Under the pieces are notes generated by a model. The model searched no databases and was not told the DNA's origin. It saw only the letters and a program-made list of their open reading frames with translations. Made by a program: the position numbers and the translations under genes. Of a stretch of 64,000 nucleotides of DNA, positions 18,450 through 36,943 are shown piece after piece. The stretch covers positions 2,976,001 through 3,040,000 of the forward strand of contig NZ_OY762974.1 in the NCBI RefSeq assembly GCF_963667135.1, in the 5' to 3' direction. Numbering within the stretch: position 1 is the stretch's first letter; the number at the start of each line of letters is the position of its first letter. This DNA comes from an uncultured Macellibacteroides sp. (GTDB lineage Bacteria > Bacteroidota > Bacteroidia > Bacteroidales > Tannerellaceae).

Positions 18450-18484
18450 TCATTATTGCAAACTATTGTAAACAGAAAATCGCC

Positions 18485-20082: not shown

Positions 20083-20101
20083 CCAATCTTTTCCACAGAA
20101 C

Positions 20102-20136: not shown

Positions 20137-20148
20137 TCATAACGGCGT

Positions 20149-20254: not shown

Positions 20255-20282
20255 GCGGTAAATGGCTTGTCAGACCACGCCA

Positions 20283-20582: not shown

Positions 20583-20719
20583 AAATGGTTCGTTTTTTTG
20601 ATGATTAATTCTACTTATCTATTTTTTACTCAATTCTTCATATAGCTGCCCCAGCCTGTGATATGTAACCCATAAGCCATGCAGGGATATTCAGGTATAA
20701 CTATAATCTTCTTCCATAT

Positions 20720-21031: not shown

Positions 21032-21595
21032 AACATTTATATTTTAAAAATTTATTTCCTGTTTCAAAAATACGGTGGACATTGTCTACATAAAAAAGGA
21101 TTGAATTCTTTTGCAGTTACCCGCATTATCTTTCATACGTCCGGACTCCCTTTCCGGTATAAACTTCCCCTTCCTGCTACAAAATAAAACAGAATAATTC
21201 GCACTGCAATGGATTGATAACCAAGTGGAAGCATGTGGCGTTGAATTGGTTGCATGTGGCATCAAAGTCTGATTTACACCTTTGTTTCGGATAGGGATCT
21301 TAGACTGCAAGTAATTTACCAATTCCACCAGGCAGATTATCTAATTCAAAGAAAAAAAGCTGGTAAAACTGATACGATTAGCATAGTATAGATTGTCAAC
21401 ACATTATTCTTCGATGTGCAAATCAGTGCAGTTTGAACCATTTACCAAGTTGTTGGAGTAGAAAGATAAAGCAGACTCATCCATATAAACCCAATCTATA
21501 TACTATACTGATTAATCGTTGTTTATTTGCAAACGACAATCGGTTCACTGTACACACAGGAACCACACTATTCATTTTTTAATCCAGTATGTAAT
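21032..21595. other. Gene-free stretch with two spaced direct repeats
   Basis: No convincing gene lies here. GCATGTGGC occurs at 21231-21239 and 21252-21260, 21 bp apart, about two helical turns, as expected for two sites on one DNA face. The gap must hold the promoters for the HTH genes (leftward) and the DUF3408 gene (rightward); I found no exact TAnnTTTG box for either. Confidence 0.4.
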
Positions 21596-22096
21596 ATGAA
21601 AAACAAAGAGACAAGCAAAGAGACAAACAACACTGAAGACAATAAACCTTCCTTGGAAGATTGGATACCGAAGGCAACGATGTCAGAAAGGACAAACCTC
21701 TTTAATCCCACAAGTGAAGAAGTTCAAGGGCAATTCAACGAGATGAATTTGGGTGTGCAATCAAAAGAAGAGAAGGTGCAGCATACAGTTGCAAACATTA
21801 CTGACGATACTGTACAGACTGTACCTGAAGAACAGATTGTGTATACGGGATCCAAACGTACCACTAGCAAACAACGAAAAGAATCACTGGAAGAATACAG
21901 GCAAACTTTCCTGCAGGTTCCGAAACTGGAGAACCGAAAACCGGTATTTGTCAGTTGTGAGATGCGGGACAGATTAGACGAAATTGCCCGCAAATTGGGA
22001 GGGCGGAAGATGAGTGTATCGGGATTTATCGAAAACCTTGTCCGGCATCATTTGGAGATGTATCAGGAAGATATTGAGAGCTGGAAAAGGTTATAG
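21596..22096 (+). CDS. DUF3408 protein
   Basis: This 166-residue protein has a polar, likely disordered N-terminal half (rich in Lys, Glu, Thr) and a conserved C-terminal domain of about 60 residues: KPVFVSCEMRDRLDEIARKLGGRKMSVSGFIENLVRHHLEMY. This is the DUF3408 region, which resembles a ribbon-helix-helix fold. DUF3408 proteins are found mainly on Bacteroides conjugative and mobilizable elements next to mobilization genes, as here. I use ATG at 21596 rather than TTG at 21527 because the extra residues are not conserved-looking. A role in DNA binding at the transfer origin is an inference. Confidence 0.75.
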   Translation: MKNKETSKETNNTEDNKPSLEDWIPKATMSERTNLFNPTSEEVQGQFNEMNLGVQSKEEKVQHTVANITDDTVQTVPEEQIVYTGSKRTTSKQRKESLEEYRQTFLQVPKLENRKPVFVSCEMRDRLDEIARKLGGRKMSVSGFIENLVRHHLEMYQEDIESWKRL

Positions 22097-22178
22097 TGTA
22101 CTAACTGCAAATAATGGGATAAATCAGCGTACTATTCAATTTTATCCTTTCAATGCAACGAGTCTGCCTGATTAAGCG

Positions 22179-22216
22179 GAGCAAGTTTGTGTTTCGGTCA
22201 GACCGAAACCTTGCTC
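22179..22216. other. Candidate transfer origin (oriT) hairpin
   Basis: GAGCAAG (22179-22185) pairs with CTTGCTC (22210-22216), and inside it GTTTCGGTC (22191-22199) pairs with GACCGAAAC (22201-22209) around one base. The only interruption is a 5-nt bulge. It is in the 170-bp gap directly before mobC and the relaxase, the usual place for oriT. Nicking has not been shown. Confidence 0.45.
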
Positions 22217-22266
22217 TGCGAGGCGATATATCCCGCCGGTCTCATTAATAACTATAATACAATTAT

Positions 22267-22629
22267 ATGAAAACTATAAGAAACAGAAATACAAACGGCA
22301 GACCGGCCAAAGAACCTGCCGAAAAGAAAGGTTACAAGGTAACTCTGAAAATGGCAACCGAAGAATACTTTTCGCTCAAAGCCAAAGCAAGGGAGGCAGG
22401 AATATCCCGGAGTGAATATATCCGCCGTTGCATCCAATCCAGTGTAGTTAAACAATGTCTGACACCGGAGCTGATGGGTTACATCCGGCAACTTTGCGGG
22501 ATGGCTAACAACGTAAATCAGATTGCTCATAAAGCTAATGCTGCAGGATATGAAACAGCATATTCTCAAAATATTGCTATGAATCAACGGTTGGATAAGC
22601 TGATAAAAATGATAGAAGATGATTGCTAA
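22267..22629 (+). CDS. MobC/BmgB-type mobilization accessory protein
   Basis: This 120-residue basic protein has a ribbon-helix-helix-like first half (YKVTLKMATEEYFSLKAKAREAGISRSEYIRRCI) and a helical second half carrying the MobC hallmark LCGMANNVNQIAHKANA. MobC proteins bind oriT and help the relaxase open the DNA. The gene overlaps the relaxase start by 11 bp, which is the standard arrangement in Bacteroides mobilizable elements, and the candidate oriT hairpin lies 50 bp upstream of its start. Confidence 0.88.
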   Translation: MKTIRNRNTNGRPAKEPAEKKGYKVTLKMATEEYFSLKAKAREAGISRSEYIRRCIQSSVVKQCLTPELMGYIRQLCGMANNVNQIAHKANAAGYETAYSQNIAMNQRLDKLIKMIEDDC

Positions 22630-23563
22630 GATTGTTCAGGGAAGAGGCTTCCGGGGTGTAGTAAACTATGTACTTGACAAGAAAAATTCCCAATTACTGT
22701 ATGGTGAAGGTATACGGTTCAAAGACAAAGAATCCATTATTCAAAGTTTTGTCACCCAAAGTAAGCTGAATCCTAAAATTACCAAACCGGTTGCCCATAT
22801 CTCACTGGATTTCTCTTTACAGGATAAACAGAAACTGACAGACGGATTGATGGTGACTATAGCTCAGGAATACCTAAAAAGGATGGGGTATGAAAATACC
22901 CAATACATCATTGCCCGGCATCATGACACCGACCACCCGCACATTCATCTGGTGGTAAACCGTATCGACAATGATGGAAAACGTATTTCCGACCAAAATG
23001 AAAAATTGCGAAGTACGAAAATATGTATGGAATTGACAAAGGAACATAGCCTCTATATTGCTTCCGGCAAAGAAAATGTAAAGGAATATCGCCTGAAAGA
23101 ACCTGACAAAACCAAATATGAAATATATCATGCCTTACAATCAGGCATTGTAAAATCTAAAAACTGGCAGGAGTTGGAAGCGACACTGCTGAAAGCAGGC
23201 ATTACCACCGAATTCAGATACAATGGGAGTACGGACAAGATACAAGGCGTAAGGTTTACAAAGAACGGTTATTCCTTTAATGGTTCCAAAATTGACCGTA
23301 CTTGCAGTTACTCCAACATCAGTTATCAGTTGCATCAAAACGGTAGGGTAGAGCAAGACCCCATCCTTCAGACCGCAAAGCACAACCTACAGGACAACAC
23401 TATGGGATTTTCTTCGGTGGCGGAAACCGCAGCTTCTACGCTAGGAGGATTATTTGACCTGATTCAACCAATACAGACGGCATCCGGTTATGACGAAGAA
23501 CAAGTCGAAGCCTTGAGACAGGAGGCCAAAAGGCGAAAAAAGAAAAAAGGACGCAGATTATAA
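22619..23563 (+). CDS. Relaxase/mobilization nuclease (MobP family)
   Basis: This 314-residue nuclease would nick one strand at oriT and lead it into the recipient. The N-terminal domain starts MIAKIVQGRGFRGVVNYV, where Tyr17 is a candidate catalytic tyrosine, and carries the metal-binding His triad region HHDTDHPHIHLVVNRID at residues 101-117. The C-terminal third is variable and ends in a lysine-rich tail. The family is Relaxase PF03432 and the length is typical of Bacteroides mobilizable transposons. It overlaps mobC by 11 bp and is followed 39 bp later by a membrane protein gene. Confidence 0.93.
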   Translation: MIAKIVQGRGFRGVVNYVLDKKNSQLLYGEGIRFKDKESIIQSFVTQSKLNPKITKPVAHISLDFSLQDKQKLTDGLMVTIAQEYLKRMGYENTQYIIARHHDTDHPHIHLVVNRIDNDGKRISDQNEKLRSTKICMELTKEHSLYIASGKENVKEYRLKEPDKTKYEIYHALQSGIVKSKNWQELEATLLKAGITTEFRYNGSTDKIQGVRFTKNGYSFNGSKIDRTCSYSNISYQLHQNGRVEQDPILQTAKHNLQDNTMGFSSVAETAASTLGGLFDLIQPIQTASGYDEEQVEALRQEAKRRKKKKGRRL

Positions 23564-23602
23564 GCGAACTATTGTTATCAATCACGTATAAAAATAAAAA
23601 CT

Positions 23603-24253
23603 ATGGCTACAGACAAAATGAATTCTTCAGCGGTATATGAACTTTTCGAGGAATTGAAACAAAAGATTATGGAGTTGGAGAGGAAAGCAACTCTGGAGGT
23701 TCAGGCAGATACAGCTTCACATGCTGATAAAATAGAAACACTCGTGGAAGAATTGCGCACTTTTACCGCTCAAAGTCAATTCACGCCGGAACAAATCAAT
23801 GAATTACAACGAAACATGACGCAGGTTGCAGCTTATTCGTTAGGCAAAGCCAACAATAAACTGGATCAAATATTTGCCGGACTGTCCGCCCTTATTGATC
23901 CGATCAATAAAAAAATGGATCTGGTAAACCTGCCTGAACATTTCGTTATCCGTAAGGAGCATGTATACAGCTTTAAGCTGGATTTCAAAAACAGCCGAAC
24001 AGCTATTATAATTATCGTTATGGGATTAGCTATTTTCTTTTCATTAGCAGGGAATGTATGGCAATTCTACCTCAATAGCCAATTGAAGAACAACGACTTG
24101 AAATATCGCTATATTCAAATGATGGGAAAAATAAATCATGAAGCCTTCCTCAAACTGGATACAATGTTCACTTATGAACCAAACAAGGATAGTATTGCCG
24201 TTATCCGAAAGCAGGTGGAAGCTTACGAACGGTTACAGCTATATAAAAAATAG
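23603..24253 (+). CDS. MbpC-like mobilization membrane protein
   Basis: This 216-residue protein has an N-terminal coiled-coil region (ELFEELKQKIMELERKATLEVQADTASH), a single membrane segment at about residues 134-153 (TAIIIIVMGLAIFFSLAGNVW) and a C-terminal polar domain. Third-position genes after relaxases in Bacteroides elements often code such single-pass proteins, called MbpC in some. It may tie the relaxosome to the membrane or the helper's coupling protein. I see no catalytic motif, so the function is by context. Confidence 0.65.
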   Translation: MATDKMNSSAVYELFEELKQKIMELERKATLEVQADTASHADKIETLVEELRTFTAQSQFTPEQINELQRNMTQVAAYSLGKANNKLDQIFAGLSALIDPINKKMDLVNLPEHFVIRKEHVYSFKLDFKNSRTAIIIIVMGLAIFFSLAGNVWQFYLNSQLKNNDLKYRYIQMMGKINHEAFLKLDTMFTYEPNKDSIAVIRKQVEAYERLQLYKK

Positions 24254-24796: not shown

Positions 24797-25207
24797 ATGA
24801 AAGATACAGACGACAAACTGACGAGTAGAAATATAAAACCAACTGCTATGCGGGAATTGGTTTTGGACATTCTAACGGAACAGAAAATGGCAATTAGCTT
24901 ATCTGATTTAGAACAAAAGTTTCATAAATCTGATAGAGTTACATTGTACCGCACTCTCAAAACATTCGAGGAAAACAAGCTGATTCATAGCATAGACGAC
25001 GGAACTGGTGCAGTTAAATACGCTCTTTGTAAAGAATCATGCCAATGTCACCCGGAAGATTTACATGTTCACTTTTTTTGCCTAAAATGTCAACATACAT
25101 TTTGTCTGAGTGACATTCCAATTCCTTCTATCAATCTACCAGTTAATTTTAGTATGGAAAACATAAATATGGTTGTAAAAGGAGTGTGTTCAAACTGCAA
25201 CAATTAG
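24797..25207 (+). CDS. Fur-family metal-responsive regulator
   Basis: This 136-residue regulator has a winged-helix N-terminal domain with the recognition helix at about residues 45-60 (SDRVTLYRTLKTFEE) and a C-terminal dimer/metal domain. Structural zinc cysteines are Cys95/Cys98 (FFCLKC) and Cys131/Cys134 (VCSNC); further ligands could be Cys78, Cys82, Cys84, His85, His90 and His92. The extra cysteine cluster CKESCQCH is worth noting. It is the first cargo gene; a 7-1-7 palindrome of the Fur-box type starts 2 bp after its stop and recurs before the P-type ATPase gene. Control of metal export by a Fur homologue, rather than MerR or ArsR, is the unusual point. Metal identity is not shown. Confidence 0.9.
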   Translation: MKDTDDKLTSRNIKPTAMRELVLDILTEQKMAISLSDLEQKFHKSDRVTLYRTLKTFEENKLIHSIDDGTGAVKYALCKESCQCHPEDLHVHFFCLKCQHTFCLSDIPIPSINLPVNFSMENINMVVKGVCSNCNN

Positions 25208-25209
25208 TT

Positions 25210-25224
25210 TGCAACTCAGTTGCA
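25210..25224 (+). promoter_or_regulatory. 7-1-7 palindromic operator, copy 1
   Basis: TGCAACTCAGTTGCA is a perfect 7-1-7 palindrome, the geometry of Fur-family boxes. Its centre lies 21 bp before the first base of the -7 box at 25238, exactly as in copy 2 at 32429-32443. The site covers the region where the -33 element would be. Confidence 0.75.
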
Positions 25225-25237
25225 TAAACTTTTTACT

Positions 25238-25245
25238 TATCTTTG
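25238..25245 (+). promoter_or_regulatory. -7 promoter element of the pump operon
   Basis: TATCTTTG matches TAnnTTTG, 31 bp before the ATG at 25277. It lies downstream of a possible upstream in-frame start at 25220, so translation should start at 25277. Confidence 0.7.
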
Positions 25246-25276
25246 CGGTTGTTCTAACAGTTGTAATCAAATTTCT

Positions 25277-25672
25277 ATGAACAGAATGGGGAAAAATAGT
25301 AAGTTTATATTAATGTTACTGGCTGGTCTGGTAATATTACTTCATTCTACAATTCCGCACCATCATCATTTCGATTCATACAGCGACCACAATAATAGTA
25401 ATTCTTGCCAATCAGAAAAAAGAGGTGAGTCTTCCAGTGAAGCCAATAAGCATTGTCATGCTCTAAACAATATTGTTTTTACAAAAGCTAATGCAATAAC
25501 TTTTAATGCGAATACTGCATCAACTGCTATGTTGTTTGTTTTCGCTGCATTTGATCTGGTAAGACTCTACGACAGAGTTTTACTAACTATTTTCCCAATT
25601 AAAGATATTGTTATCCTAAAACAATATCTTTCCTCAGAACTATCCATTAGAGGTCCTCCTACCTTAGTTTAA
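25277..25672 (+). CDS. His-rich exported or membrane protein of the metal operon
   Basis: This 131-residue protein has an N-terminal hydrophobic segment (FILMLLAGLVILLHSTI, residues 10-26), then a metal-ligand-rich stretch with HHHH at 28-31, further histidines at 38, 59 and 61 and cysteines at 44 and 60, and a second hydrophobic segment near 84-105. It is the first gene under the palindromic operator. The location of the His cluster just outside the membrane suggests metal capture in the periplasm before export. I do not recognise the family with confidence; small His-rich proteins at this position occur in other Bacteroidetes metal loci. Confidence 0.7.
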   Translation: MNRMGKNSKFILMLLAGLVILLHSTIPHHHHFDSYSDHNNSNSCQSEKRGESSSEANKHCHALNNIVFTKANAITFNANTASTAMLFVFAAFDLVRLYDRVLLTIFPIKDIVILKQYLSSELSIRGPPTLV

Positions 25673-25746
25673 CTTCTTCTTACTTAGTATTTTTATTTCC
25701 CTGGCAGAAATGTCAGACTCTTGTTCATTTTTAAAATTTAGCTCTA

Positions 25747-26214
25747 ATGAGTAAAAGAAAACTGACAAAAAGGGAATTGCGGGAAAGGCAGGTTTTCGAA
25801 GATAAAAAATTTAATCGGACGTTGCTCATTAGTTTTAGCTCACTTTTCGTTTTTATAATTTTTTATTTAGTGTTTCATACCTTCTGGCATGATACAAAAT
25901 ACACCTACCGTCAATATGCATTATATGGCAAGCAAGTTCCGGCAGAGCTTGTATGTATGAATGGTGACAAACTTCTCAAGCATGAAAGCATAAAACTTAG
26001 TTACAAAGGAAAAAAATATTCCTTCTGCAACCAAGACTGTTATGATCATTTTGTCAACCACTTTACGGAAGATGCATTTATCTCGGATCCGCTTTCAGGT
26101 GACACTATTTGCAAAGCAGATGCTTTGTTGGGATTAAAAAATCAAGGAAATCCAGAGATTGTTTATTTCCAGAACTTAAAAACATTCAATCAATTTTATA
26201 AATCAAGAAAATAA
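25747..26214 (+). CDS. Membrane-anchored TRASH-like metal-binding protein
   Basis: This 155-residue protein has a basic N-terminus, one membrane segment (about residues 25-46) and a soluble domain with Cys70, Cys94 and Cys98, giving C-x23-C-x3-C. The TRASH domain has C-x19/22-C-x3-C and binds heavy metals, so the spacing is one residue longer than usual; a YHS-like fold is the alternative. The context KKYSFCNQDCYDHF fits both. It lies 74 bp after the His-rich gene and 7 bp before a 41-residue membrane peptide, all upstream of the CzcA-type pump. It is likely a metal sensor or chaperone facing the periplasm. Confidence 0.7.
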   Translation: MSKRKLTKRELRERQVFEDKKFNRTLLISFSSLFVFIIFYLVFHTFWHDTKYTYRQYALYGKQVPAELVCMNGDKLLKHESIKLSYKGKKYSFCNQDCYDHFVNHFTEDAFISDPLSGDTICKADALLGLKNQGNPEIVYFQNLKTFNQFYKSRK

Positions 26215-26221
26215 ATGACTT

Positions 26222-26347
26222 GTGAAAAAACATAAATTCCAGCTAAAACAAGTAATAAAATGGTTTTTCATTACTTCGGTCTGTTTGATTCTCATAATTG
26301 GAATCATTGCCAGAATTCAACACTTTTTCACAGTGCATTTAAAATAA
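26222..26347 (+). CDS. Small single-pass membrane protein, 41 residues
   Basis: A GTG-started frame runs 42 codons to TAA at 26345-26347 and codes a basic N-terminus (VKKHKFQLKQVIKW), one hydrophobic helix (FFITSVCLILIIGIIA) and a short tail with two histidines. It fits tightly between its neighbours: 7 bp after the TRASH-like gene and 15 bp before the pump gene. The strong membrane-segment pattern and the spacing suggest a real gene, perhaps a small pump subunit as seen in some RND systems. No homology is claimed. Confidence 0.5.
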   Translation: MKKHKFQLKQVIKWFFITSVCLILIIGIIARIQHFFTVHLK

Positions 26348-26362
26348 ATCAATAATTAAATT

Positions 26363-29300
26363 ATGATAGAACGTATTATTAATTTTTCAATAAAGAATAA
26401 GTTTATTATAGGCTTATTTGTAGTTGCATTAATTGGCTGGGGGGCGTACTCGCTTACTCAGTTGCCTATTGATGCAACCCCTGACATAACCAACAACCAG
26501 GTGCAGGTTATTTCGCTTGCCCCATCGTTGGCGGTTCAGGAAGTCGAGAGCTCAATTACAGCACCTATTGAGGTAGCTGTTGCCAATATCCCCAATATGA
26601 TTGAACTTCGCTCCATCTCACGTTTGGGCTTGTCGGTGACTACTATTGTGTTTAAAGACAATGTAGATATCTACTGGGCACGGCAACAAGTCGGGGAACG
26701 CCTAAAAGAAGCCGAGGACATTATCCCGGCGGGTCTCGCAAAAATTGAGATGGCGCCTATTTCTACGGGCTTGGGCGAGATATACCAATATCGCCTTGCT
26801 GTAGAAAAGGGATATGAAACTAAATATTCTCCAATGGACTTAAGAACCTTGCAGGATTGGACGGTTCGTCGCGAGATGTTAGGAACAACAGGTGTAGCGG
26901 ATATTAACAGCTATGGCGGATTCGTGAAGCAATATGAAGTAGCCATAAATCCCGAGAGACTTAGAAGCATGAACCTTACACTCACCGACATCTTTGATGC
27001 ACTTGAAAGAAACAACGAGAATACAGGTAGTGCGTATATCGACAAAAAACCAACTGCTTACTTTATCCGTGGCATTGGGTTGGTAAAATCATTAGAAGAT
27101 ATTGAAAAGATTGTTGTAAAAAGCAACTCATCGGGTATTCCTGTTTTAATTAGAGATATTGCAAGTGTTCAATATGGAAATTCCACACGATATGGTGCTA
27201 TGGTTATTGATACTACAGAGGCTGTTGGCGGTGTGGTTATGATGCTCAAAGGAGCAAATGCGAATGAAGTTACAAAGAATGTAGAAACCCGCATTGAAAC
27301 CATTCAGAAATCATTACCTAAAGGAGTGAAGATTGAACCGTTTCTTAATCGTTCTGATTTAGTGGGACGTGCTATTAGTACTGTTGCCAGAAACCTGATT
27401 GAAGGGGCATTAATTGTTATCTTCATTTTGATATTGTTTTTAGGAAATATGCGGGCAGGGCTCATTGTTGCCTCAGTAATTCCACTTTCAATGCTGTTTG
27501 CTGTTTCAATGATGCAACTTTTTGGTGTATCGGGTAACCTGATGAGTCTGGGAGCTATTGACTTCGGGTTAATTGTGGATGGTGCAGTAATTATTGTCGA
27601 GAGCGTGGTGCATCGAATAACAATGAGTAAACACCATCATCCGGGTATTAAAAGACTTTCGCAGCCACAAATGGATGAAACAGTATTCGAGTCGGCAAAA
27701 CGTATGATGAGTTCCGCCACATTCGGACAAGTTATTATCCTGATTGTGTATGTCCCAATTATGGCGTTGGTGGGTATCGAAGGTAAAATGTTTCGTCCCA
27801 TGGCACAAGTTGTGTCATTTGCATTGATTGGTGCTACAATTCTATCATTAACGTATGTGCCAATGGTTTCAACCTTATTCTTGAGTAAGAACACCGAACA
27901 CAAACCCAATTTTTCAGATAAGATGATGAATTGGTTTCACAAGATATTTAATCCGGCTATCCGGTTTGCCTTAAAACGGAAATTACTTGTATCAGCATCG
28001 GTCATTGCAATATTCATTGCAAGTCTCTTTGTCTTTAGTAGCTTGGGAGGTGAGTTCATTCCTCAACTGGAGGAAGGCGATTTGGCAGCAGGGGTAATTA
28101 CCTTGCAGGGTGGTTCGCTTACCAATACGGTTGAGCAGGTTCAAAAAGCTAATAAAATATTACTTGCTAACTTCCCTGAAATAAAACATGTTGTTTGTAA
28201 AATTGGAGCAGGCGAAATTCCAACCGACCCAACTCCAATGGAAACAGGTGATTATATTATTACGCTCAAAGATAAAAGTGAATGGACTTCGGCAAAAAAC
28301 CGTGAAGAACTGGTGGAAAAGATGGAAGAAGCATTGATACCGTTGGCAGGTGTAAAATTTGAGTTTCAACAACCGATTCAAATGCGTACCAACGAATTGC
28401 TTTCGGGATCAAAACAGGATATTGCTATAAAAATATTCGGCGATGACCTGAACACACTAGCTGATAAAGCTTCGCAAGTGGAAAAAATCATTCAAAAAGT
28501 TCAAGGCGTTGAAGATATTAATGTGGAGAAAGTAACCGGGTTGGCTCAGATTCAGGTTGAATATAATCGTGATCGATTGGCTCAATACGGACTCTCAATT
28601 GCAGAAGTAAACCGTGTGTTACGGACAGCATTTGCCGGAAGTCAGGCGGGAGTAGTATTCGACGAAGAAAAACGGTTTGGATTGGTAGTACGAATGGATA
28701 AGGATTACCGCCAAAGCATTGACGATGTAAAAAATCTTTCAGTTGCTTTGCCCAATGGCGGACAGATTCCTTTTGAACAAATTGCCAATGTTGAAATAAA
28801 ATCAGGTCCTGCACAGGTGTCACGTGAAGATACAAAACGCCGTATAACCATTGGTTTTAATGTTCGTAACAGAGATGTACAAAGTGTCATAGCTGATGTC
28901 ACAAAACAAATTGATGCAAAAGTGCAACTACCAACAGGTTATTACGTAAAATATGGCGGTCAATTTGAGAATCTTCAAGCTGCCAAGGCTCGTCTGGCAA
29001 TTGCTGTTCCGGTAGCGTTGTTGCTCATATTTGTACTCTTATTCTTTACATTTCATTCTGTAAAACAAACCTTATTAATCTATACAGCTGTACCCATGTC
29101 GTTGATTGGGGGTATTTTGGCACTTTGGCTACGAGGTATGAATTTTTCCATTTCTGCAGGGGTTGGTTTTATCGCTTTGTTTGGTATCGCCGTGTTAAAT
29201 GGCATTGTACTCATTGCCGAATTTAACCGATTGGAGAAAGAAGAAAGTATCACAGATATTTACGAACGGGTTATTAAAGGACTGAATACACGTTTGCGTC

Positions 29301-30757
29301 CGGTAATTATGACGGCTGCCGTTGCTTCGTTGGGTTTCTTGCCTATGGCATTATCTACCTCGGCAGGTGCTGAAGTGCAAAAACCGCTGGCAACAGTTGT
29401 TATTGGTGGACTGATAACAGCCACTTTACTGACGCTAATCGTTTTGCCTATCTTTTACATATTCTTTTCAACTTTTTCATTCAGGTCACTTTTTAAAAGG
29501 AAGTCGGTGAAAACCTTGTCTGTTTTGTTGATGCTTGTTGTTTGTTCTTCGGGTTTTAATTCAATAAATGCGCAGCAAACTAAAAGCATTAATCTGAAAC
29601 AAGCAATTCAAATGGCGTTGGACAGTAATTTATCCGTGCGTTCGTCAAAATATTCTGTTGATGTTCAAAAGGCCTTAAAGGGTGCTTCGTGGGATATTCC
29701 AAAGACTAGCATTGATGGACAATACGGGCAATTTAACTCCTATAGCAAAGACAATAGTTTCACTGTATCGCAATCCTTTGCTTTTCCAACGGTTTATATA
29801 AATCAAAACAAACTGGCTAAAGCCAATGTCAAAAGCAGCGAATGGCAGTTGAAAACTTCGCAGCTCGAAATTGCCACGCAAGTGAAACAAATTTACTGGC
29901 AATTGGCTTACCTGTATTCGAAGCAAAAATTATTCGCATATCAGGATAGTTTATACACTGGCTTCCAAAAAGCGGCAGAACTCAGGGCAAAAACGGGTGA
30001 AACAAACCAGCTCGAAATGATTTCAGCTCGTTCGCAAAGCCTCGAAATTAAAAATCAGTTGCAACAGATTAATGCCGATTTGGTGATTTATAATCAGAAA
30101 CTGCAAACTATTTTAAATGTTGGAACAACCCTGTACCCTGCCGATACAGTGTTACACCGTATCGACTATTTACCTGCTGCCGACAAATCCGTTTTAGCTG
30201 CTAATCCTTCTGTTAGCTATATTAATCAACAGGTTGAAGTGGCTCGGTTGGAGAAAAAAGTGGAAAGCAGTCGAATATTACCCGATTTGAGTATAGGGTA
30301 TTTCAGCCAAACCATGCAGGGAACTCAGGAAATAAACGGAGTGCCACGTGTATTTGGTACGGGCAACCGCTTTACCGGAATTCAGGTGGGCATTGCAGTT
30401 CCATTATGGTTTGCACCTTATTCTGCAAAAGCTAAGGCTGCAAAGTTTAAAGAAAAAGTGGCACAAACAAATGCGGAGTATTATTCAAAATCGCTTTCAG
30501 GTAGTTATCGTTCATTAATGCTTGAATTCAGCAAGAACAGCAATAGTGTTGATTATTACGAAAAACAGGCAATTCCAGAGGCCAATTTAATTATTGAACA
30601 GGCTACAAAAAGTTACAAAGCCGGAGCATTGGATTATCTGGACTACATTCTTAGTTTAAGTCGTGCATTAAGTATTAAACAAAGCTATCTCGATGCACAG
30701 AACGACTATAATCAAACTATTATTTCTATTGACTTTATTACAGGTAAAATATATTAA
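26363..30757 (+). CDS. CzcA-type RND metal efflux pump fused to a TolC-type channel
   Basis: This 1464-residue protein is two proteins in one frame. Residues 1 to about 1045 are a heavy-metal RND pump with TM1 (FIIGLFVVALIGWGAYSL), the periplasmic loops and the proton-relay helix DFGLIVDGAVIIVE at 400-413. DFGxxxDGA is the pattern of divalent cation pumps (CzcA, Zn/Co/Cd), not of copper/silver CusA. After the last pump helix comes a second signal-like segment (about 1050-1073, KTLSVLLMLVVCSSGFNSINAQ) and then two TolC repeats to the end. The fused form is known in Bacteroidetes; cleavage after the internal signal is an inference. It precedes the adaptor gene by 51 bp. Confidence 0.92.
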   Translation: MIERIINFSIKNKFIIGLFVVALIGWGAYSLTQLPIDATPDITNNQVQVISLAPSLAVQEVESSITAPIEVAVANIPNMIELRSISRLGLSVTTIVFKDNVDIYWARQQVGERLKEAEDIIPAGLAKIEMAPISTGLGEIYQYRLAVEKGYETKYSPMDLRTLQDWTVRREMLGTTGVADINSYGGFVKQYEVAINPERLRSMNLTLTDIFDALERNNENTGSAYIDKKPTAYFIRGIGLVKSLEDIEKIVVKSNSSGIPVLIRDIASVQYGNSTRYGAMVIDTTEAVGGVVMMLKGANANEVTKNVETRIETIQKSLPKGVKIEPFLNRSDLVGRAISTVARNLIEGALIVIFILILFLGNMRAGLIVASVIPLSMLFAVSMMQLFGVSGNLMSLGAIDFGLIVDGAVIIVESVVHRITMSKHHHPGIKRLSQPQMDETVFESAKRMMSSATFGQVIILIVYVPIMALVGIEGKMFRPMAQVVSFALIGATILSLTYVPMVSTLFLSKNTEHKPNFSDKMMNWFHKIFNPAIRFALKRKLLVSASVIAIFIASLFVFSSLGGEFIPQLEEGDLAAGVITLQGGSLTNTVEQVQKANKILLANFPEIKHVVCKIGAGEIPTDPTPMETGDYIITLKDKSEWTSAKNREELVEKMEEALIPLAGVKFEFQQPIQMRTNELLSGSKQDIAIKIFGDDLNTLADKASQVEKIIQKVQGVEDINVEKVTGLAQIQVEYNRDRLAQYGLSIAEVNRVLRTAFAGSQAGVVFDEEKRFGLVVRMDKDYRQSIDDVKNLSVALPNGGQIPFEQIANVEIKSGPAQVSREDTKRRITIGFNVRNRDVQSVIADVTKQIDAKVQLPTGYYVKYGGQFENLQAAKARLAIAVPVALLLIFVLLFFTFHSVKQTLLIYTAVPMSLIGGILALWLRGMNFSISAGVGFIALFGIAVLNGIVLIAEFNRLEKEESITDIYERVIKGLNTRLRPVIMTAAVASLGFLPMALSTSAGAEVQKPLATVVIGGLITATLLTLIVLPIFYIFFSTFSFRSLFKRKSVKTLSVLLMLVVCSSGFNSINAQQTKSINLKQAIQMALDSNLSVRSSKYSVDVQKALKGASWDIPKTSIDGQYGQFNSYSKDNSFTVSQSFAFPTVYINQNKLAKANVKSSEWQLKTSQLEIATQVKQIYWQLAYLYSKQKLFAYQDSLYTGFQKAAELRAKTGETNQLEMISARSQSLEIKNQLQQINADLVIYNQKLQTILNVGTTLYPADTVLHRIDYLPAADKSVLAANPSVSYINQQVEVARLEKKVESSRILPDLSIGYFSQTMQGTQEINGVPRVFGTGNRFTGIQVGIAVPLWFAPYSAKAKAAKFKEKVAQTNAEYYSKSLSGSYRSLMLEFSKNSNSVDYYEKQAIPEANLIIEQATKSYKAGALDYLDYILSLSRALSIKQSYLDAQNDYNQTIISIDFITGKIY

Positions 30758-30808
30758 TTCCACCTTATCGACCCTTATTTGGGTTAGATGTGTTAAAACA
30801 AAAACATT

Positions 30809-31993
30809 ATGACAAAATATAAATTTATATCACCAATCGTTATTTTAGCCGCTCTCTTGACATTTTCGTCATGTAACGGAAATAAAAAATCAGCTGTGGC
30901 AGAAGAAGAAACAGAAGTAATTCCCGAAGATATTGTAGAATTACGCGAAGATCAGGTAAAACTGGCCAATATAGAAATGGGCGCAATTGAATTGCGATCA
31001 ATGAGTGGAACATTAAAAGTAAACGGTACTGTCTCAGTTGCACCACAAAATCTGGCAACCGTTAGTATGCCAATGGGTGGGTTTGTAAAAAGTACAAACC
31101 TTATGCCTGGCAATGCTGTTCGGAAAGGGCAAACACTCGCCATTATCGAAAATCAGGAGTTTATCGACATTCAGCAAAATTATTTGGAAGCAAAAAACAG
31201 ATGTGAACTTGCCAAAACTGAATACGACCGTCAAAAAGAACTTTTCAAAAGCGATGTATCTTCTCAGAAAAACATGCAACAGGTTACTTCCAATTACAAT
31301 AGTCTCAAAGTTCAGGTAAAAGCTTTGGAACAAAAGCTGTCGCTTGTTGGAATTAATCCGTTCAAACTGAACGAAGATAATATCAGTCGGTCAGTGGCAT
31401 TGGTTTCGCCTATTACGGGGTATGTCAAGGCTGTAAATGTGAGTATTGGCAAATCTGTTTCAGCTTCCGATGTATTGTTCGAAATTGTAAACAGCGACAA
31501 ACTATTTCTTGAACTCACATTATTTGAAAAAGATGCTGATAAAGTATCTAATGGTGAAAAAATTCGCTTTTATATCAACAATGAAACAGAACAGCATGAA
31601 GCAGTTGTCTATCAAACTGGAAAGTCTATAAATAATGATAAGACTTACAAAGTGTATGCGAATGTTGTCGGACATTGTAAAAACATGTTACCGGGTATGT
31701 ATGTAAATGCTCAAATTCAAGCTAAAAGTGGTCAGGCAACCTCAGTTCCTTCTGCGTCTATTGTCAGTTTCGACGACAAAGATTATATTTTCGTATTCGA
31801 GAAAAACAAGGTAGAAAGTGGAAAACCTTTTACCGAATACCGGATGATTCAAATAAAGAAAGGCGTTTCTGATGACGGATTTACAGAAATCGTTTTGCCT
31901 GAAGGCTTCAACTTTAAAGAAGCAAAAGTCGTTATTAAAGGAGCATACAATTTGCTTTCAGCAAAGAAAAATGCCGGCGAAATGAGTTGTTAA
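30809..31993 (+). CDS. RND metal efflux adaptor lipoprotein (CzcB/CusB-like)
   Basis: This 394-residue adaptor has a lipoprotein signal with Cys22 (LLTFSSCNGN), so it is anchored by lipid on the periplasmic side. It then shows an acidic linker (AEEETEVIPEDIVELRED), the barrel-sandwich halves (VSMPMGGFVKSTNLMPGNAVRKG and ALVSPITGYVKAVNVSIGKSVS), a helical hairpin of about 60 residues and a beta-barrel. It joins the CzcA half of the fused pump to its TolC half. It lies 51 bp after the pump gene and 26 bp before the PII-like gene in the same operon. Confidence 0.92.
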   Translation: MTKYKFISPIVILAALLTFSSCNGNKKSAVAEEETEVIPEDIVELREDQVKLANIEMGAIELRSMSGTLKVNGTVSVAPQNLATVSMPMGGFVKSTNLMPGNAVRKGQTLAIIENQEFIDIQQNYLEAKNRCELAKTEYDRQKELFKSDVSSQKNMQQVTSNYNSLKVQVKALEQKLSLVGINPFKLNEDNISRSVALVSPITGYVKAVNVSIGKSVSASDVLFEIVNSDKLFLELTLFEKDADKVSNGEKIRFYINNETEQHEAVVYQTGKSINNDKTYKVYANVVGHCKNMLPGMYVNAQIQAKSGQATSVPSASIVSFDDKDYIFVFEKNKVESGKPFTEYRMIQIKKGVSDDGFTEIVLPEGFNFKEAKVVIKGAYNLLSAKKNAGEMSC

Positions 31994-32019
31994 TCAATTA
32001 AAATAAAAAGATTAAAATT

Positions 32020-32352
32020 ATGAAAGAGATAAAAGCATTTGTAAAGCCATTTAAAGTAAATGATATTTTGAATCAATTACTACAGGAGGGCTATCCCAAT
32101 ACAACAGTTTCTTTAGCTGAAGGAACAGGGAAATTTAAAAGTGAGGACTCTACACTTTCAACCCATTTTTCTATAACAGATAGCAAAGTGGCTAAGATTG
32201 AAATTGTGTGCAATGATGTTGATGTTGAAAAAATTGTTAGCATTATTTCCACTAAAGGAAGAACCGGCAATCCGGGTGACGGTATTATCTACGTTTCCGA
32301 AATACAAAATGTGTATAAAGTAAGGACAGGGTTGGAAAACAAGGAAGATTAG
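32020..32352 (+). CDS. PII-like (GlnB-superfamily) protein in the metal operon
   Basis: This 110-residue protein aligns by eye with GlnB along its length: MKEIKAFVKPFKVNDILNQLLQEGY matches the first strand and helix, VAKIEIVCNDVDVEKIVSIIS the second half, GRTGNPGDGIIYVSEIQNVYKVRTG the ATP-binding C-terminal signature. The T-loop is shorter and lacks the uridylylated tyrosine. PII-like proteins linked to RND metal-efflux genes are a described subgroup, so a role in sensing nucleotides or metals to tune the pump is more likely than nitrogen control. It is the last gene of the first cargo transcript, ending at a strong terminator. Confidence 0.85.
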   Translation: MKEIKAFVKPFKVNDILNQLLQEGYPNTTVSLAEGTGKFKSEDSTLSTHFSITDSKVAKIEIVCNDVDVEKIVSIISTKGRTGNPGDGIIYVSEIQNVYKVRTGLENKED

Positions 32353-32362
32353 TTTAAATCTA

Positions 32363-32396
32363 AAGACAGCTCAATGAATTGGGCTGTCTTTTTTTT
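32363..32396 (+). terminator. Rho-independent terminator after the pump operon
   Basis: AAGACAGC-CAAT pairs with ATTG-GCTGTCTT around two bases, followed by a T tract (eight T after the stem). It separates the pump operon from the ATPase operon, so the second operator is needed for the latter. Confidence 0.85.
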
Positions 32397-32428
32397 GATT
32401 AGTTATAAGTGTCTGAAAAGTAAAACTT

Positions 32429-32443
32429 TGCAACTTAGTTGCA
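32429..32443 (+). promoter_or_regulatory. 7-1-7 palindromic operator, copy 2
   Basis: TGCAACTTAGTTGCA differs from copy 1 only in the central base. Its centre is 21 bp before the first base of the -7 box at 32457, the same spacing as copy 1. Confidence 0.75.
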
Positions 32444-32456
32444 CTGCGTTTTTCAT

Positions 32457-32464
32457 TATTTTTG
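32457..32464 (+). promoter_or_regulatory. -7 promoter element of the ATPase operon
   Basis: TATTTTTG matches TAnnTTTG. The leader to the ATG at 32546 is about 80 bp, longer than usual in this window, with no clear hairpin. Confidence 0.65.
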
Positions 32465-32545: not shown

Positions 32546-34633
32546 ATGAAAAAATATAAGCTAAATAATTTAGATTGTGCGTCATGTGCAACTAAGATAG
32601 AAAGCAGTCTGTCAAAACTGGAGGAAGTAAAATTCGTAACGGTGAATTTTGCAAATGCCACCATGACTATTGATACCGATAATCTCGAAAAGGTCAAAGC
32701 TCAGATTAAGACACTTGAACCAGAAGTTGAAGTAGAAGACATTGACAAGGAGAAAACATTGGTTTCGGTAAGTGAACTTGCAGAAAATAAAGGAACAATA
32801 ATTAAAGCAGTCTCTGCTTTGGCATTATTAGTTATTGGGATAATATTTGAAGAAAAACTACACAATACTCCGTTTCAACTCGGTGAATACGCAGTATATG
32901 TTACCGCTTACCTCATTGTGGGTTGGAATGTGATAGCCTCAGCTGTAAAAAATATCATTAGAGGACAATTCTTTGATGAACAGTTTTTAATGGCCATAGC
33001 AACACTGGGAGCTTTTGCTATTCATCAAATGCCCGAAGCGGTGGCAGTAATGCTATTTTACGTGACTGGTGAATTATTTCAGGACATTGCAGTGGGTCGT
33101 TCACGCAAGTCAATCAAATCGCTATTGGAAATAAAACCCGATTATGCCAATCTGAAATCAGGCGTGGAAGTAGTCCGGGTTTCTCCCGAAGATGTAAAAG
33201 TTGGTGACATTATTGTCGTTAAGGCAGGTGAAAAAGTTCCACTCGACGGAACGATACTCGACGGAACTTCGTTTGTTGATACCGCAGCGTTAACAGGCGA
33301 AAGTGTACCCAGAAAGGTAAAAGAAAAAGATGCCGTATTATCCGGGATGATCAATCAAAATGGGCTCATAACTATCAAAGTCACTAAGCTTTTCAGCGAA
33401 TCTTCTATTTCAAAAATAATGGAATTGGTCGAAAACGCCACTTCACAAAAAGCGGAAACGGAGAAGTTCATTACAACTTTTGCGCGGTATTATACGCCCA
33501 TAGTTGTCATTGGTGCTCTATTGCTCGCCGTTTTGCCTCCACTGTTATTTGCCGGGCAAACCTTCAGCGATTGGATTTATCGAGCATTGGTTGTGTTGGT
33601 TGTTTCCTGTCCCTGCGCTTTGGTTATTAGCATTCCACTGGGCTACTTTGGTGGTATCGGCATGGCTTCAAGAAAGGGTATTCTGGTCAAAGGGTCCAAC
33701 TTTCTGGATGCACTCACACAGGTAAAAACCGTAGTTTTTGATAAGACGGGAACACTTACAAAAGGAGAATTTAAAGTTTCGGAGGTGGTTACTTCCAACG
33801 GCTTTTCCAAAGACGAAATCTTGGAATTTGCGGCCTATGCTGAGATGAATTCAAATCACCCGATAGCACAATCTATTTCCCTAGCATATCAAGGTAAAAT
33901 TGACATTGCAAGAATTACAAAAACTGAAGAAATTTCGGGACATGGTATGAAGGCAATCGTTGACGGTAAAACAATACTTGCCGGCAATGATAAAATGTTA
34001 CACAAAGAAAACGTTGCGCATTCGGTTTGTCAGGTTGACGGAACGGTAGTACACATAGCCATTGACCACGTTTATGCGGGTTATATTATTATTTCCGATA
34101 GCTTGAAAGACGATGCAGTTGAAGCTATTGAAAATTTAAAATCAAAGAATATTCAAACGGTCATGCTCACCGGTGACAACCAATTTGCTGCAGCAGCCTT
34201 TGCAAAGAAATTGAATATAGACAAATACTTCTATGAACTACTCCCCGAAGATAAAGTCAAACACATTGAACAGTTAATCATAGAAAATAAAGGAGGCAAA
34301 GTTGCCTTTGTTGGCGATGGAATAAATGATGCTCCTGTGATTGCCCGTGCTGATGTGGGAATAGCCATGGGAGCACTTGGATCCGATGCTGCAATTGAAA
34401 CTGCCGATGTAGTGCTAATGACAGACTCACCGTCAAAAGTTGCTTTATCCATTGAAGTTGCGAAAATAACGAGAAACATTGTTTGGCAAAATATTTACTT
34501 TGCTATGGGTGTAAAACTAATTTTCATCGTTCTGGGTGTATTCGGTGTTGCAACCATGTGGGAAGCTGTGTTTGGAGATATGGGCGTTGCTTTAATTGCT
34601 GTTTTTAATGCTATTAGAATACTGAAAAAATGA
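32546..34633 (+). CDS. P1B-type metal-transporting ATPase, Zn/Cd/Pb type
   Basis: This 695-residue inner-membrane ATPase exports divalent metal from the cytoplasm. Features in order: an HMA domain with CASC (about residues 11-14), membrane helices from about 85, the actuator TGES loop, the metal-site motif CPC at about 355-357, the phosphorylated Asp399 in DKTGT, and the hinge GDGINDAP. The last membrane segments read GVKLIFIVLGVFGVATMWEAVFGDMG, the pattern of P1B-2 (ZntA/CadA) pumps. This agrees with the CzcA-type RND partner that would move the metal from periplasm to outside. Its stop overlaps the next gene by 4 bp. Confidence 0.93.
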   Translation: MKKYKLNNLDCASCATKIESSLSKLEEVKFVTVNFANATMTIDTDNLEKVKAQIKTLEPEVEVEDIDKEKTLVSVSELAENKGTIIKAVSALALLVIGIIFEEKLHNTPFQLGEYAVYVTAYLIVGWNVIASAVKNIIRGQFFDEQFLMAIATLGAFAIHQMPEAVAVMLFYVTGELFQDIAVGRSRKSIKSLLEIKPDYANLKSGVEVVRVSPEDVKVGDIIVVKAGEKVPLDGTILDGTSFVDTAALTGESVPRKVKEKDAVLSGMINQNGLITIKVTKLFSESSISKIMELVENATSQKAETEKFITTFARYYTPIVVIGALLLAVLPPLLFAGQTFSDWIYRALVVLVVSCPCALVISIPLGYFGGIGMASRKGILVKGSNFLDALTQVKTVVFDKTGTLTKGEFKVSEVVTSNGFSKDEILEFAAYAEMNSNHPIAQSISLAYQGKIDIARITKTEEISGHGMKAIVDGKTILAGNDKMLHKENVAHSVCQVDGTVVHIAIDHVYAGYIIISDSLKDDAVEAIENLKSKNIQTVMLTGDNQFAAAAFAKKLNIDKYFYELLPEDKVKHIEQLIIENKGGKVAFVGDGINDAPVIARADVGIAMGALGSDAAIETADVVLMTDSPSKVALSIEVAKITRNIVWQNIYFAMGVKLIFIVLGVFGVATMWEAVFGDMGVALIAVFNAIRILKK

Positions 34634-35244
34634 AAAAAATATTATTTATAACATGCGTACTAATTTCTATGAATATGTATGCTCAAAAAACGAGAGAAAT
34701 AAAGAACAACGAAATAAAAGTTCTTTTTCTTAGTTCACTTGATTTCAAACAAGCGAAAGCTACCCAAATTAGTGATTTCTTGCACAAAGGGGATAAAATA
34801 AAACTTAATCAGTTTTTTATTTCTCCGGATATAACGGTTGTAGAACAAAATACAAAAAAGAGTTTCCCAAAAGACAGTATTTTTGCAATTCAACTAACTA
34901 ATGGACAGAATTACAGATTTATCAATCGGAAGCCATATCTTATTGCTGATACTTCTTTTCTTTATATCTATACCAGAAATGACGTTAAAACTGAATATCA
35001 GCAATCAGGTCCACACACTATCCATAAGGAAATTCCGGTAACCGTCTATTATTTTAGCTTTGGAGACCATAAAAAAGTGTATTCACTTACCTTGGTAAAT
35101 CTTCGAAAATATATTCTTATCGATCCTGTAGTTCACACAGCTGTGTGCAATAAATTTACCAATGATGAAATGCTGTCTGAAATTAACAACAGTACTGGAC
35201 ATTTCATTTTAAACGAAATAATACGCTCTAAACTCAATCAATAA
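34630..35244 (+). CDS. Secreted protein of unknown function, co-transcribed with the ATPase
   Basis: This 204-residue protein has a signal peptide (MKKILFITCVLISMNMYAQ) and a soluble domain with no motif I recognise. The mature part is rich in Lys, Asn and aromatic residues and has only one cysteine (in HTAVCNKF), so it is not an obvious metal-sulfur protein. The start overlaps the ATPase stop by 4 bp (ATGA), which implies translational coupling and a shared task, perhaps periplasmic metal handling. A DUF302 gene follows after 18 bp. Confidence 0.7.
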   Translation: MKKILFITCVLISMNMYAQKTREIKNNEIKVLFLSSLDFKQAKATQISDFLHKGDKIKLNQFFISPDITVVEQNTKKSFPKDSIFAIQLTNGQNYRFINRKPYLIADTSFLYIYTRNDVKTEYQQSGPHTIHKEIPVTVYYFSFGDHKKVYSLTLVNLRKYILIDPVVHTAVCNKFTNDEMLSEINNSTGHFILNEIIRSKLNQ

Positions 35245-35262
35245 CAATTTAATACTATCGCT

Positions 35263-35649
35263 ATGGAATACTATTTTAGCAAAACGCTTCATGCTTCCTT
35301 CGATGAAGCAATTACGATAACAACAGAAGGATTAAAATCTCAGGGCTTCGGAGTTATAACCGTTATTAATATGAATGAAAAACTCAAAGAAAAACTCAAT
35401 GTCGATTTCAAACGGTATACCATTCTCGGGGCATGTAATCCCCCATTTGCCTACAAAGCCTTGCTGGCCGAAGATAAAATCGGGACAATGTTACCATGCA
35501 ATGTGCTGGTTATAGAACAGGGAGAAAACCTCATTGAAATAGCAGCCGTCAATCCAATTGCCTCCATGCAGGCAATTTCGAACCCAGCTCTTGGCGAAGT
35601 CGCTCAACAAGTGACAAACTTGCTCCAAAAAGTTATTGAAAATTTGTAG
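35263..35649 (+). CDS. DUF302 protein
   Basis: This 128-residue protein fits DUF302: SFDEAITITTEGLKSQGFGVI at the start, then the conserved ILGACNPPFAYKALLAEDKIGTMLPCNVLV block with cysteines at both ends. It has no signal peptide, so it is likely cytoplasmic. DUF302 proteins often sit beside metal or sulfur/redox genes; their reaction is not known. It is the last gene of the ATPase operon and ends at a strong hairpin. Confidence 0.85.
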   Translation: MEYYFSKTLHASFDEAITITTEGLKSQGFGVITVINMNEKLKEKLNVDFKRYTILGACNPPFAYKALLAEDKIGTMLPCNVLVIEQGENLIEIAAVNPIASMQAISNPALGEVAQQVTNLLQKVIENL

Positions 35650-36142: not shown

Positions 36143-36508
36143 ATGATGACAAAAGAAGAAGTAGCCTCCATTGTACTTCATTGTACGGAGCAAAAAGTAA
36201 GTTTTAAATCCCGTCTTGAAGAACTTGGAATTGCCCAATGGCGATTTTATGAGGCAAAAGGCAGGTACGAGAAGGCTAAAGATGCGTGTTCACCCAATGA
36301 ACTGCTTGAACTTGGAGATAAAGGTACTTTTATACCGTGTCCGCCCCTTACACGAAAGGCTAAGAAAGCATCAGCCTCTCAAAGTGAAACCAATTGCAAT
36401 CTGAATATCGAACTGCAGACTGCAGGCGGTGTAATGATCAGAATACAAGGTGAGCTTGACAGCTCTCAGCTCAGAAGTATAATCTTATGTGCTGTGGGTC
36501 ATGTTTAG
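36143..36508 (+). CDS. tnpA: IS66 accessory protein TnpA
   Basis: This 121-residue protein is the first gene of the IS66 set. Its N-terminus reads MMTKEEVASIVLHCTEQKVSFKSRLEELGI, followed by a helix-turn-helix-like part, and it ends in the LDSSQLRSIILCAVGHV block seen before TnpB in such elements. It lies 49 bp inside the left inverted repeat and overlaps tnpB by 20 bp, so TnpB is probably made by translational coupling. TnpA proteins of this family are needed for transposition, but their exact role is not known. Confidence 0.8.
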   Translation: MMTKEEVASIVLHCTEQKVSFKSRLEELGIAQWRFYEAKGRYEKAKDACSPNELLELGDKGTFIPCPPLTRKAKKASASQSETNCNLNIELQTAGGVMIRIQGELDSSQLRSIILCAVGHV

Positions 36509-36863
36509 TCTGGGTGACAGTAACCGCTACCTACTATATAGCGAGCCTACGGATATGCGAAAAAGCTTCCACACATTAAGTGGCCTTGTTACGAACAGGA
36601 TGGGTTCAAATCCTCATAACGGGGAAGTGTTCATCTTTATTAATAAGAGCCGTAACCGTATCAAACTGCTTCATTGGGAACCAGGAGGAATGGTGATATA
36701 CTGCAAGATGCTGGACCGAGGTACCTTCGTATTACCAGATTGTTCTTCAGTGAATAATGCGTCATACCCGATGCAATGGCGTGACCTGGTTCTTCTGGTG
36801 GAAGGAATCATGGAGAAACCCGATAGTAGGCAAACCCGACTGGAACATCTGAGAAATCTGTAA
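36489..36863 (+). CDS. tnpB: IS66 accessory protein TnpB
   Basis: This protein of up to 124 residues carries the IS66 Orf2 signature: PTDMRKSFHTLSGLV, then GEVFIFINKSRNRIKLLHWE and GMVIYCKMLDRGTF. The start could also be the ATG at 36501, which gives MFSLGDSNRYLLYSEPTDMRK and removes most of the overlap with tnpA. It is not related to the TnpB nucleases of IS200/IS605. It is intact and is followed after 80 bp by the transposase gene. Confidence 0.92.
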   Translation: MLWVMFSLGDSNRYLLYSEPTDMRKSFHTLSGLVTNRMGSNPHNGEVFIFINKSRNRIKLLHWEPGGMVIYCKMLDRGTFVLPDCSSVNNASYPMQWRDLVLLVEGIMEKPDSRQTRLEHLRNL

Positions 36864-36943
36864 TTATAACAGCAAATAATTAGTTAATAATTTGTATAAA
36901 CAATTGATATTCACTACATTTACCCTGTAAATAAAACGGGGGA

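Follow-up and report, generated by a model that had tools for sequence, protein, structure and literature searches.

The window analysed here, a stretch of 64,000 nucleotides from an uncultured Macellibacteroides sp. (contig NZ_OY762974.1, positions 2,976,001 to 3,040,000), carries a block of metal-export genes that is preceded by the gene for a Fur-family protein and contains two copies of a 15-base-pair (bp) palindrome, each at the same distance from a predicted promoter. That the adjacent Fur-family protein reads the palindrome at the export promoters is well supported by comparison of sequences, and with a probability of roughly 0.5 regulator, palindrome and pumps would make up a dedicated Zur-like Fur-family unit that serves to export divalent soft metals (Zn/Cd/Pb type) and occurs across the Bacteroidota, with the regulator acting as an activator. 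The regulator gene, the two palindromes (operators 1 and 2, from a pattern scan of window and genome) and their promoter elements are:

24797 to 25207, plus strand: Fur-family regulator gene, 136 amino acids (PF01475, E 3e-9, over the model's cut-off)
25208 to 25211, plus strand: TTTG at the left edge of operator 1, kept on the left side only
25210 to 25224, plus strand: operator 1, TGCAACT-C-AGTTGCA
25238 to 25245, plus strand: -7 box of promoter 1, TATCTTTG, 21 bp from the centre of operator 1, a spacing (20/21) that is fixed in relatives
32427 to 32430, plus strand: TTTG at the left edge of operator 2, kept as at operator 1
32429 to 32443, plus strand: operator 2, TGCAACT-T-AGTTGCA
32457 to 32464, plus strand: -7 box of promoter 2, TATTTTTG, 21 bp from the centre of operator 2

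The initial annotation had described TGCAACT-N-AGTTGCA at 25210 and 32429 with only the centre base differing, and both coordinates and letters were confirmed, the sole difference being C at 25217 and T at 32436. At both copies the centre lies 21 bp before the first base of a TAnnTTTG box, as had been reported, and the Fur-family gene said to lie directly upstream of the first copy ends 2 bp before operator 1. The absence of a third copy also held, as a scan allowing up to two mismatches returned two matches in the window, both exact. Shuffled windows (n = 100) contained a mean of 0.23 matches, with two or more in 2 of 100. Across the whole genome (4,461,457 bases) there were two exact copies and none of a reversed control, while 0.02 exact copies per genome are expected from the base composition of the window. 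With up to two mismatches the genome gave 15 matches compared to 8 for the reversed control, so the near-copies are mostly background. The genome-wide search that had been proposed therefore brought up two exact copies and not many scattered ones, and both stand before export genes, with no exact box at zinc-uptake or zinc-scarcity genes of this genome. A global regulon with many sites is ruled out by this count, and a chance origin of the pair by the shuffles, the genome count, the expectation of 0.02 and the spacing counts given below.

The genes behind the two promoters are:

25277 to 25672, plus strand: small, histidine-rich DUF6769 protein, first gene behind promoter 1 (PF20558, E 7e-7, matched on a longer frame from 25220; the start codon given here was chosen by us)
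25747 to 26214, plus strand: YHS-domain-like protein, 155 amino acids (PF04945, E 3e-6, 27.7 bits, under the curated cut-off of 30.3)
26363 to 30757, plus strand: fusion of a CusA/CzcA-family RND metal pump and an outer-membrane efflux protein, 1464 amino acids (TIGR00914, PF00873, PF02321)
30809 to 31993, plus strand: periplasmic adaptor, CzcB/CusB type (TIGR01730, 126.5 bits, cut-off 94.9)
32020 to 32352, plus strand: P-II-like protein, 110 amino acids (PF00543, E 1e-17)
32546 to 34633, plus strand: heavy-metal P-type ATPase, cadmium/zinc type, behind promoter 2 (TIGR01512, 530 bits, cut-off 313.5)
34630 to 35244, plus strand: 204-amino-acid protein, family unassigned, start overlapping the ATPase stop (relatives in loci L026, L031 and L033)
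35263 to 35649, plus strand: DUF302 protein, 128 amino acids (PF03625, E 8e-22)

The pump fusion scored 1160 bits against TIGR00914 (cut-off 701), and several plasmid relatives are annotated as CusA/CzcA with a similar length. The adaptor stayed under the cut-off of TIGR00999 (119.8 against 319.3 bits). The ATPase fell under that of the copper model TIGR01511 (368.5 against 397 bits) and matched the narrower ZntA-type models NF008262 and NF033775 strongly, yet under their cut-offs. The P-II-like gene closes the pump operon and is kept in many relatives; for the 204-amino-acid protein neither Pfam nor NCBIfam gave a match at E 0.001. Relatives of the pump, adaptor or ATPase were found near the regulator in 75 of 81 loci (L018-L098). 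A palindrome copy also precedes the ATPase in L022, L039 and, with one mismatch, L020, and none was seen before the ATPase in L029, L034, L035 and L069.

The distance between palindrome and -7 box was conserved across relatives of the regulator. A regulator scan of genome contigs gave 52 loci, and a phylum search with the regulator at E 1e-10 found homologues, some of them distant, in 101 of 395 genomes. In the set of 83 loci with a regulator identity of at least 44%, the palindrome lay downstream of the regulator gene in 70 (a 25-nucleotide limit was waived for five loci, and L055, L068, L079 and L089 needed the waiver). In 62 of these 70 a -7 box matching at 5 or more of 6 positions stood at 20 or 21 bp, and in none did one stand elsewhere; after removal of near-duplicates (identity cut 80%, 34 sites) it stood at 20/21 in 30 and elsewhere in none, and four had no box. 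When 91 loci fetched by regulator similarity alone were scanned at offsets of 8-39 from the centre of TGCA-N7-TGCA, with the site left unchosen and near-copies included, 67 of 75 exact TAnnTTTG boxes fell at 20/21, and control cores with N6 or N8 gave no boxes. Adding the window and 26 loci found through the palindrome raised this to 94 of 104. Among 46 non-redundant sites (identity cut 70%), mean identity was 0.82 in the palindrome, 0.30 in the spacer (0.28 expected; the cut itself lowers this value somewhat) and 0.32 downstream (0.31 expected; this stretch lies mostly outside the cut). The distance is thus conserved while the letters drift, and recent copying as the whole explanation is ruled out. 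The inner pair of the palindrome varies in both halves (e.g., TGCAACCCGGTTGCA), as a dimer site would allow.

An out-of-sample check used 10 of 17 plasmid records with a regulator homologue. Eight of the ten loci had the palindrome near the regulator or its operon with the best -7 box at 20/21; in two of them a second offset did equally well (32 in L150, 11 in L153). The rule held on a Bacteroides finegoldii plasmid, where the palindrome precedes an ATPase-regulator pair, and on a Phocaeicola plasmid, where it precedes the regulator itself; a Pontibacter plasmid locus had no palindrome and a Bernardetia plasmid locus had it elsewhere in the stretch. Tandem regulator-operator sets with every operator at 20 or 21 were observed in L036:9001-18402 and L041:9001-18402, and the second regulator copy of L036 looks broken in the assembly.

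Promoter elements centred at -7 and -33 are given in the available part of the source (PMC7366714). Upstream of 109 TAnnTTTG boxes drawn from 460 kb of this genome, TTG peaked at gaps of 19 (14 cases) and 20 (7 cases) against a mean of 2.0 elsewhere, in agreement with the -33 element, and it is on this position that the palindrome centre falls. In the window promoters TTTG and TTG stand at gaps 26 and 15, not at 19/20. A left-hand TTTG at positions -9 to -6 from the palindrome centre was present in 31 of the 46 non-redundant sites and its mirror image CAAA in one; T at -8 occurred in 38 and A at +8 in 4. In those 31 sites the putative promoter element lies 25/26 bp from the -7 box compared to the canonical 19-20. 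Such asymmetry at an operator that is itself symmetric suggests that RNA polymerase makes contact here. Two further layouts were dropped: a canonical -33 element hidden in the palindrome (TTG at gaps 14, 15, 25 and 26 in only 2, 3, 0 and 5 of the 109 promoters) and a second -7 box overlapping the palindrome as a general export feature (intact TAnnTTTG in 10 of 34, absent at both window sites).

The same palindrome was also found in a second gene context with a different geometry. A search for the palindrome alone found it in 25 of the 395 genomes covered at phylum level, 23 of the 59 at family level and 35 of the 375 at class level; from these genomes and the scan of the window's own genome, 71 sites in 70 loci were classified, generally one per genome, with second sites and four genomes of the class search left out. 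In the export class, which was assigned by resemblance to proteins encoded in the window (as low as 21-28% in some cases) and counts both window sites, 25 of 30 sites were at 20/21 (23 of 28 without those two). In the Zur context, recognised by COG0523 GTPase, zur-like genes, merC and a 118-amino-acid protein, 0 of 14 sites were at 20/21 (p 1e-7) and the -7 box overlapped the palindrome in 8 of 14. L104-L106 were placed in this class via the 118-amino-acid protein, which was picked after their geometry had been seen, and without them the counts were 0 of 11 (p 1.4e-6) and 5 of 11. Sites in other contexts (1 of 27 at 20/21) resemble chance palindromes, since 22 of 27 have no exact box. Five export-class sites were off the rule: L185, L194 and L195 are probably misclassed because their regulators fall outside the export clade described below, and L167 and L170 have no exact -7 box. 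A TonB-dependent-receptor-like gene (L169:1-1515, minus strand) stands behind TGCAACCGGGTTGCA with a -7 box at 20; no recognised export gene was seen there, and the site may be a further target or a chance match.

A candidate Bacteroidota Zur regulon (L104-L108, L117-L120, L181, L182, L184, L188, L190, L194), with the palindrome at COG0523 GTPases, zur-like and other genes, was observed alongside; L118 and L120 combine zur-like genes with a MerC-like protein. At these sites TAnnTTTG often runs into the left half of the palindrome (TAnnTTTGCAAC), and overlap with the -7 box is what a repressor site would show. The initial annotation had read the 7-1-7 symmetry as Fur-box geometry. The symmetry stands, but the box is better described as a Zur box than as a generic Fur box, because the same sequence was predicted for the Zur of Desulfovibrio and because it occurs at COG0523, zur-like and merC genes.

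The regulator is, according to its AlphaFold2 model (pLDDT, the predicted local distance difference test, 90), a protein with the Fur fold, and the best Foldseek matches were Fur/PerR/Zur folds. Its residues include H64/C78/H90/H92, predicted as Zur-type sensor ligands, the extra cysteines C82/C84/C103, and the structural CxxC pairs C95/C98 and C131/C134. Two CxxC pairs form the structural zinc site of the Fur superfamily, although not of every member. Among 86 aligned relatives H64, H90, H92, C95, C98 and C103 were invariant, C78 and C82 were each present in 82, C84 in 74, and C131 and C134 each in 85. C78 lies opposite a cysteine in the alignments to both M. tuberculosis FurB (2o03) and E. 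coli Zur (4mtd), H64 opposite a histidine of E. coli Zur, and H90 and H92 opposite FurB histidines, residues that we take to be zinc-binding regulatory ligands of the two proteins. By the 2o03 alignment the four residues follow the Zur ligand pattern (Asp/His, Cys, His, His). C79 and H87 of Streptomyces Zur are named in the accessible text of one study (PMC11077047). A seven-residue insert relative to FurB carries C82 and C84.

PF01475 was the regulator's only Pfam match, with no MerR domain, and the curated Zur equivalog NF008646 was not passed (25.8 bits, cut-off 167). Just one other Fur-family match is present in the genome, at 2,180,649. A tree of 99 sequences supported the export clade (90 rows) at 98/97, with all eight Zur-like-labelled proteins and a second protein of L018 outside it; few columns and long branches make the inner forks of this tree unsure. 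That second Fur-family gene (L018:3103-3516, minus strand; 35% identical) lies beside another CzcB/OEP set and has TGCATCATTGTTGCA upstream, where the geometry differs in that a -7 box with 5 of 6 matches stands at 15. A C-x3-C signature was dropped as a marker of export versus Zur-like proteins, as L185, L194 and L195 also carry it. Fur-family control of export, as the initial annotation had proposed it, thus gains from co-occurrence, fixed geometry and a supported clade, from which we infer binding, and loses the generic Fur box.

The export block looks to sit on mobile DNA, since two integrase-family genes, a NikA/MobC-like protein, a relaxase and DUF3408 lie upstream (within 17220-24253) and an IS66 gene set downstream (36489-38476). 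A second RND-type pump gene (13413-16547), 24% similar to the CzcA-type pump, was seen a short way upstream of these integrases. The proteins most similar to the regulator come from assemblies named Bacteroidales bacterium, Paludibacter sp. and Paludibacter jiangxiensis, the regulators of the closest loci being 92-98% identical. No exact palindrome is present in a second genome of the species, which is 92% complete, and a same-genus genome has one (L164) next to a regulator that shares 45% identity with that of the window.

Taken together, the constant spacing, a TTTG on one side only, the lack of a canonical -33 element and the retained Zur-type ligands favour a metal-loaded activator acting at the core promoter. 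In such a mechanism a regulator dimer would bind the 7-1-7 Zur-type palindrome with its centre at the -33 position, 20-21 bp before the -7 box. Metal would fill the Zur-type site H64/C78/H90/H92, perhaps with C82/C84/C103, and would thereby favour DNA binding as in Zur. The bound dimer would then help RNA polymerase to open a promoter that has no correctly spaced -33 element, and excess metal would in this way switch the pumps on.

Several observations weigh against this. TTG was found at gap 19 or 20 in only 21 of the 109 sampled promoters, and because most of them have no recognisable -33 element its lack in the window is weak evidence. The dimer would cover the position normally contacted by sigma region 4, the usual place for a repressor, and a promoter element inside the palindrome could explain the fixed spacing. 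No matching palindrome was found downstream of the regulator gene in 13 of the 83 loci, nor any -7 box at 5 of 6 matches in 8 of the 70 operator loci. In the class search with box and promoter only 8 of 20 matches were at 20/21; the remaining 12 had an offset of 19 once, 9 three times and 24-29 eight times, several of them from genomes with two palindromes side by side. H90 and H92 were not aligned with histidines of E. coli Zur (4mtd). At zitB the region that Streptomyces Zur protects first, about -78 to -40, lies upstream of the core promoter, according to the available part of the report (PMC11077047). A palindrome over -33 is likewise what a repressor would show, and for this reason the sign of control stays at about even odds for activation, with repression a lesser though substantial possibility.

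A repressor released by metal would bind without the inducing metal, as apo-protein or with another metal, cover -33 and block RNA polymerase, and excess Zn/Cd/Pb on the extra cysteines would free the DNA, the reverse of Zur allostery. Such a repressor is possible, if less probable than the activator. An operator centred on the canonical -33 position is an ordinary occlusion site, and the clade insert with C82 and C84 adjoins the Zur-type site. Precedents appear in the accessible portions of two papers, one on apo-Fur repression in Helicobacter pylori (PMC2671405) and one naming apo regulation for H. pylori, C. jejuni and the Zur of C. glutamicum (PMC6613475). Occlusion, however, does not require the spacing to stay constant to one base among such divergent loci, and Zur-context sites with the same box often lie elsewhere, over the -7 box. 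The retained Zur-type ligands normally promote DNA binding, and the operators in the window leave the regulator's own promoter uncovered.

A more specific form of activation, which we put forward only tentatively and consider less likely again than repression, is a MerR-like switch. The regulator would bind between the displaced, -33-like TTTG and the -7 box, and metal would realign or replace the -33 contact, so that one Zur box has opposite signs by position: over the -7 box it would silence zinc-scarcity genes, and 20-21 bp upstream it would activate metal export. In MerR-family switches (CueR, ZntR) the operator at export genes is fixed between promoter elements to within about one base, and the spacer is over-long by 2-3 bp. 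The system in the window is alike in having its operator at a fixed spacing (20/21) inside the core promoter, but its protein family is unrelated and its displaced TTTG would be about 6 bp too far.

The remaining explanations are improbable. The regulator might sense oxidants or a different metal (PerR-like, iron or copper) and control the pumps indirectly; the best fold matches include PerR and Fur structures and the thiol-rich site could be oxidised, but the ligand set resembles that of Zur, the ATPase passes the cadmium cut-off and falls under the copper one, and pump, adaptor or ATPase relatives accompany the regulator in nearly all loci. It is, if anything, slightly less probable that another factor (e.g., a MerR-, ArsR- or CsoR-type sensor encoded elsewhere) reads the palindrome with the Fur-family gene as a passenger. 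The regulator gene ends before operator 1 and stands behind neither operator in the window, and some box-bearing export loci (e.g., L157-L162) have no regulator gene in a 3-kb stretch; set against this are the 70 of 83 loci in which the palindrome follows the regulator gene, the 7-1-7 symmetry that suits a Fur-family dimer, and a box that elsewhere is a predicted Zur box, also at Bacteroidota zur-like genes. Chance, or one promoter block inherited by recent transfer, is very improbable despite the 92-98% identity of the closest regulators and the mobile look of the region, as 46 non-redundant sites keep the spacing with flanks near chance identity and the layout recurs despite different gene order.

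The box and the fold are already known, and what is new is the regulator lineage together with a fixed core-promoter geometry. A Zur box ATGCAACnnnGTTGCAT was predicted for Desulfovibrio in 2004, one copy of which, in the part of the source available, matches the palindrome of the window (PMC545781). The Desulfovibrio and Bacteroidota Zur systems share the 15-bp palindrome, the fold and the aligned Zur-type ligands with the system described here. The latter, however, has exporters and not uptake or scarcity genes behind the box, its site is at -33 and not over the -7 box, and its regulator has extra cysteines and belongs to a separate, supported clade. In Streptomyces and Xanthomonas zinc export is activated by metal-bound Zur, as is a metallothionein in Synechococcus, as stated in the accessible text of PMC11077047. 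From the same text, Zur of Streptomyces coelicolor at zitB is alike in being a Fur-family protein with a 7-1-7 box before a zinc exporter, activation there being by the metal-bound protein. A single Zur in that organism represses uptake and activates export, whereas the window has a dedicated paralogue, and full activation of zitB requires oligomers at about -78 to -40 and further upstream compared to one box inside the core promoter here. Apo-Fur of Helicobacter pylori (sodB, pfr) is similar as a Fur-family repressor giving metal-induced expression, but it is a global regulator concerned with iron, and we know of no fixed core-promoter geometry there. A literature search over titles and the beginnings of abstracts, with few subscription journals, returned no dedicated Fur-family export clade and no 20/21 rule.

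Fur-family proteins are textbook repressors of metal uptake. An export-devoted lineage with its operator locked onto the core promoter would, if true, show how the Fur family changes sign, and since the same box occurs in two promoter layouts the idea that position sets the sign is directly testable. The geometry was found across the Bacteroidota, with plasmid records of Bacteroides, Phocaeicola and Parabacteroides among the cases, and offers a prediction rule for metal-export regulons of this phylum: a box centre 20/21 bp before TAnnTTTG.

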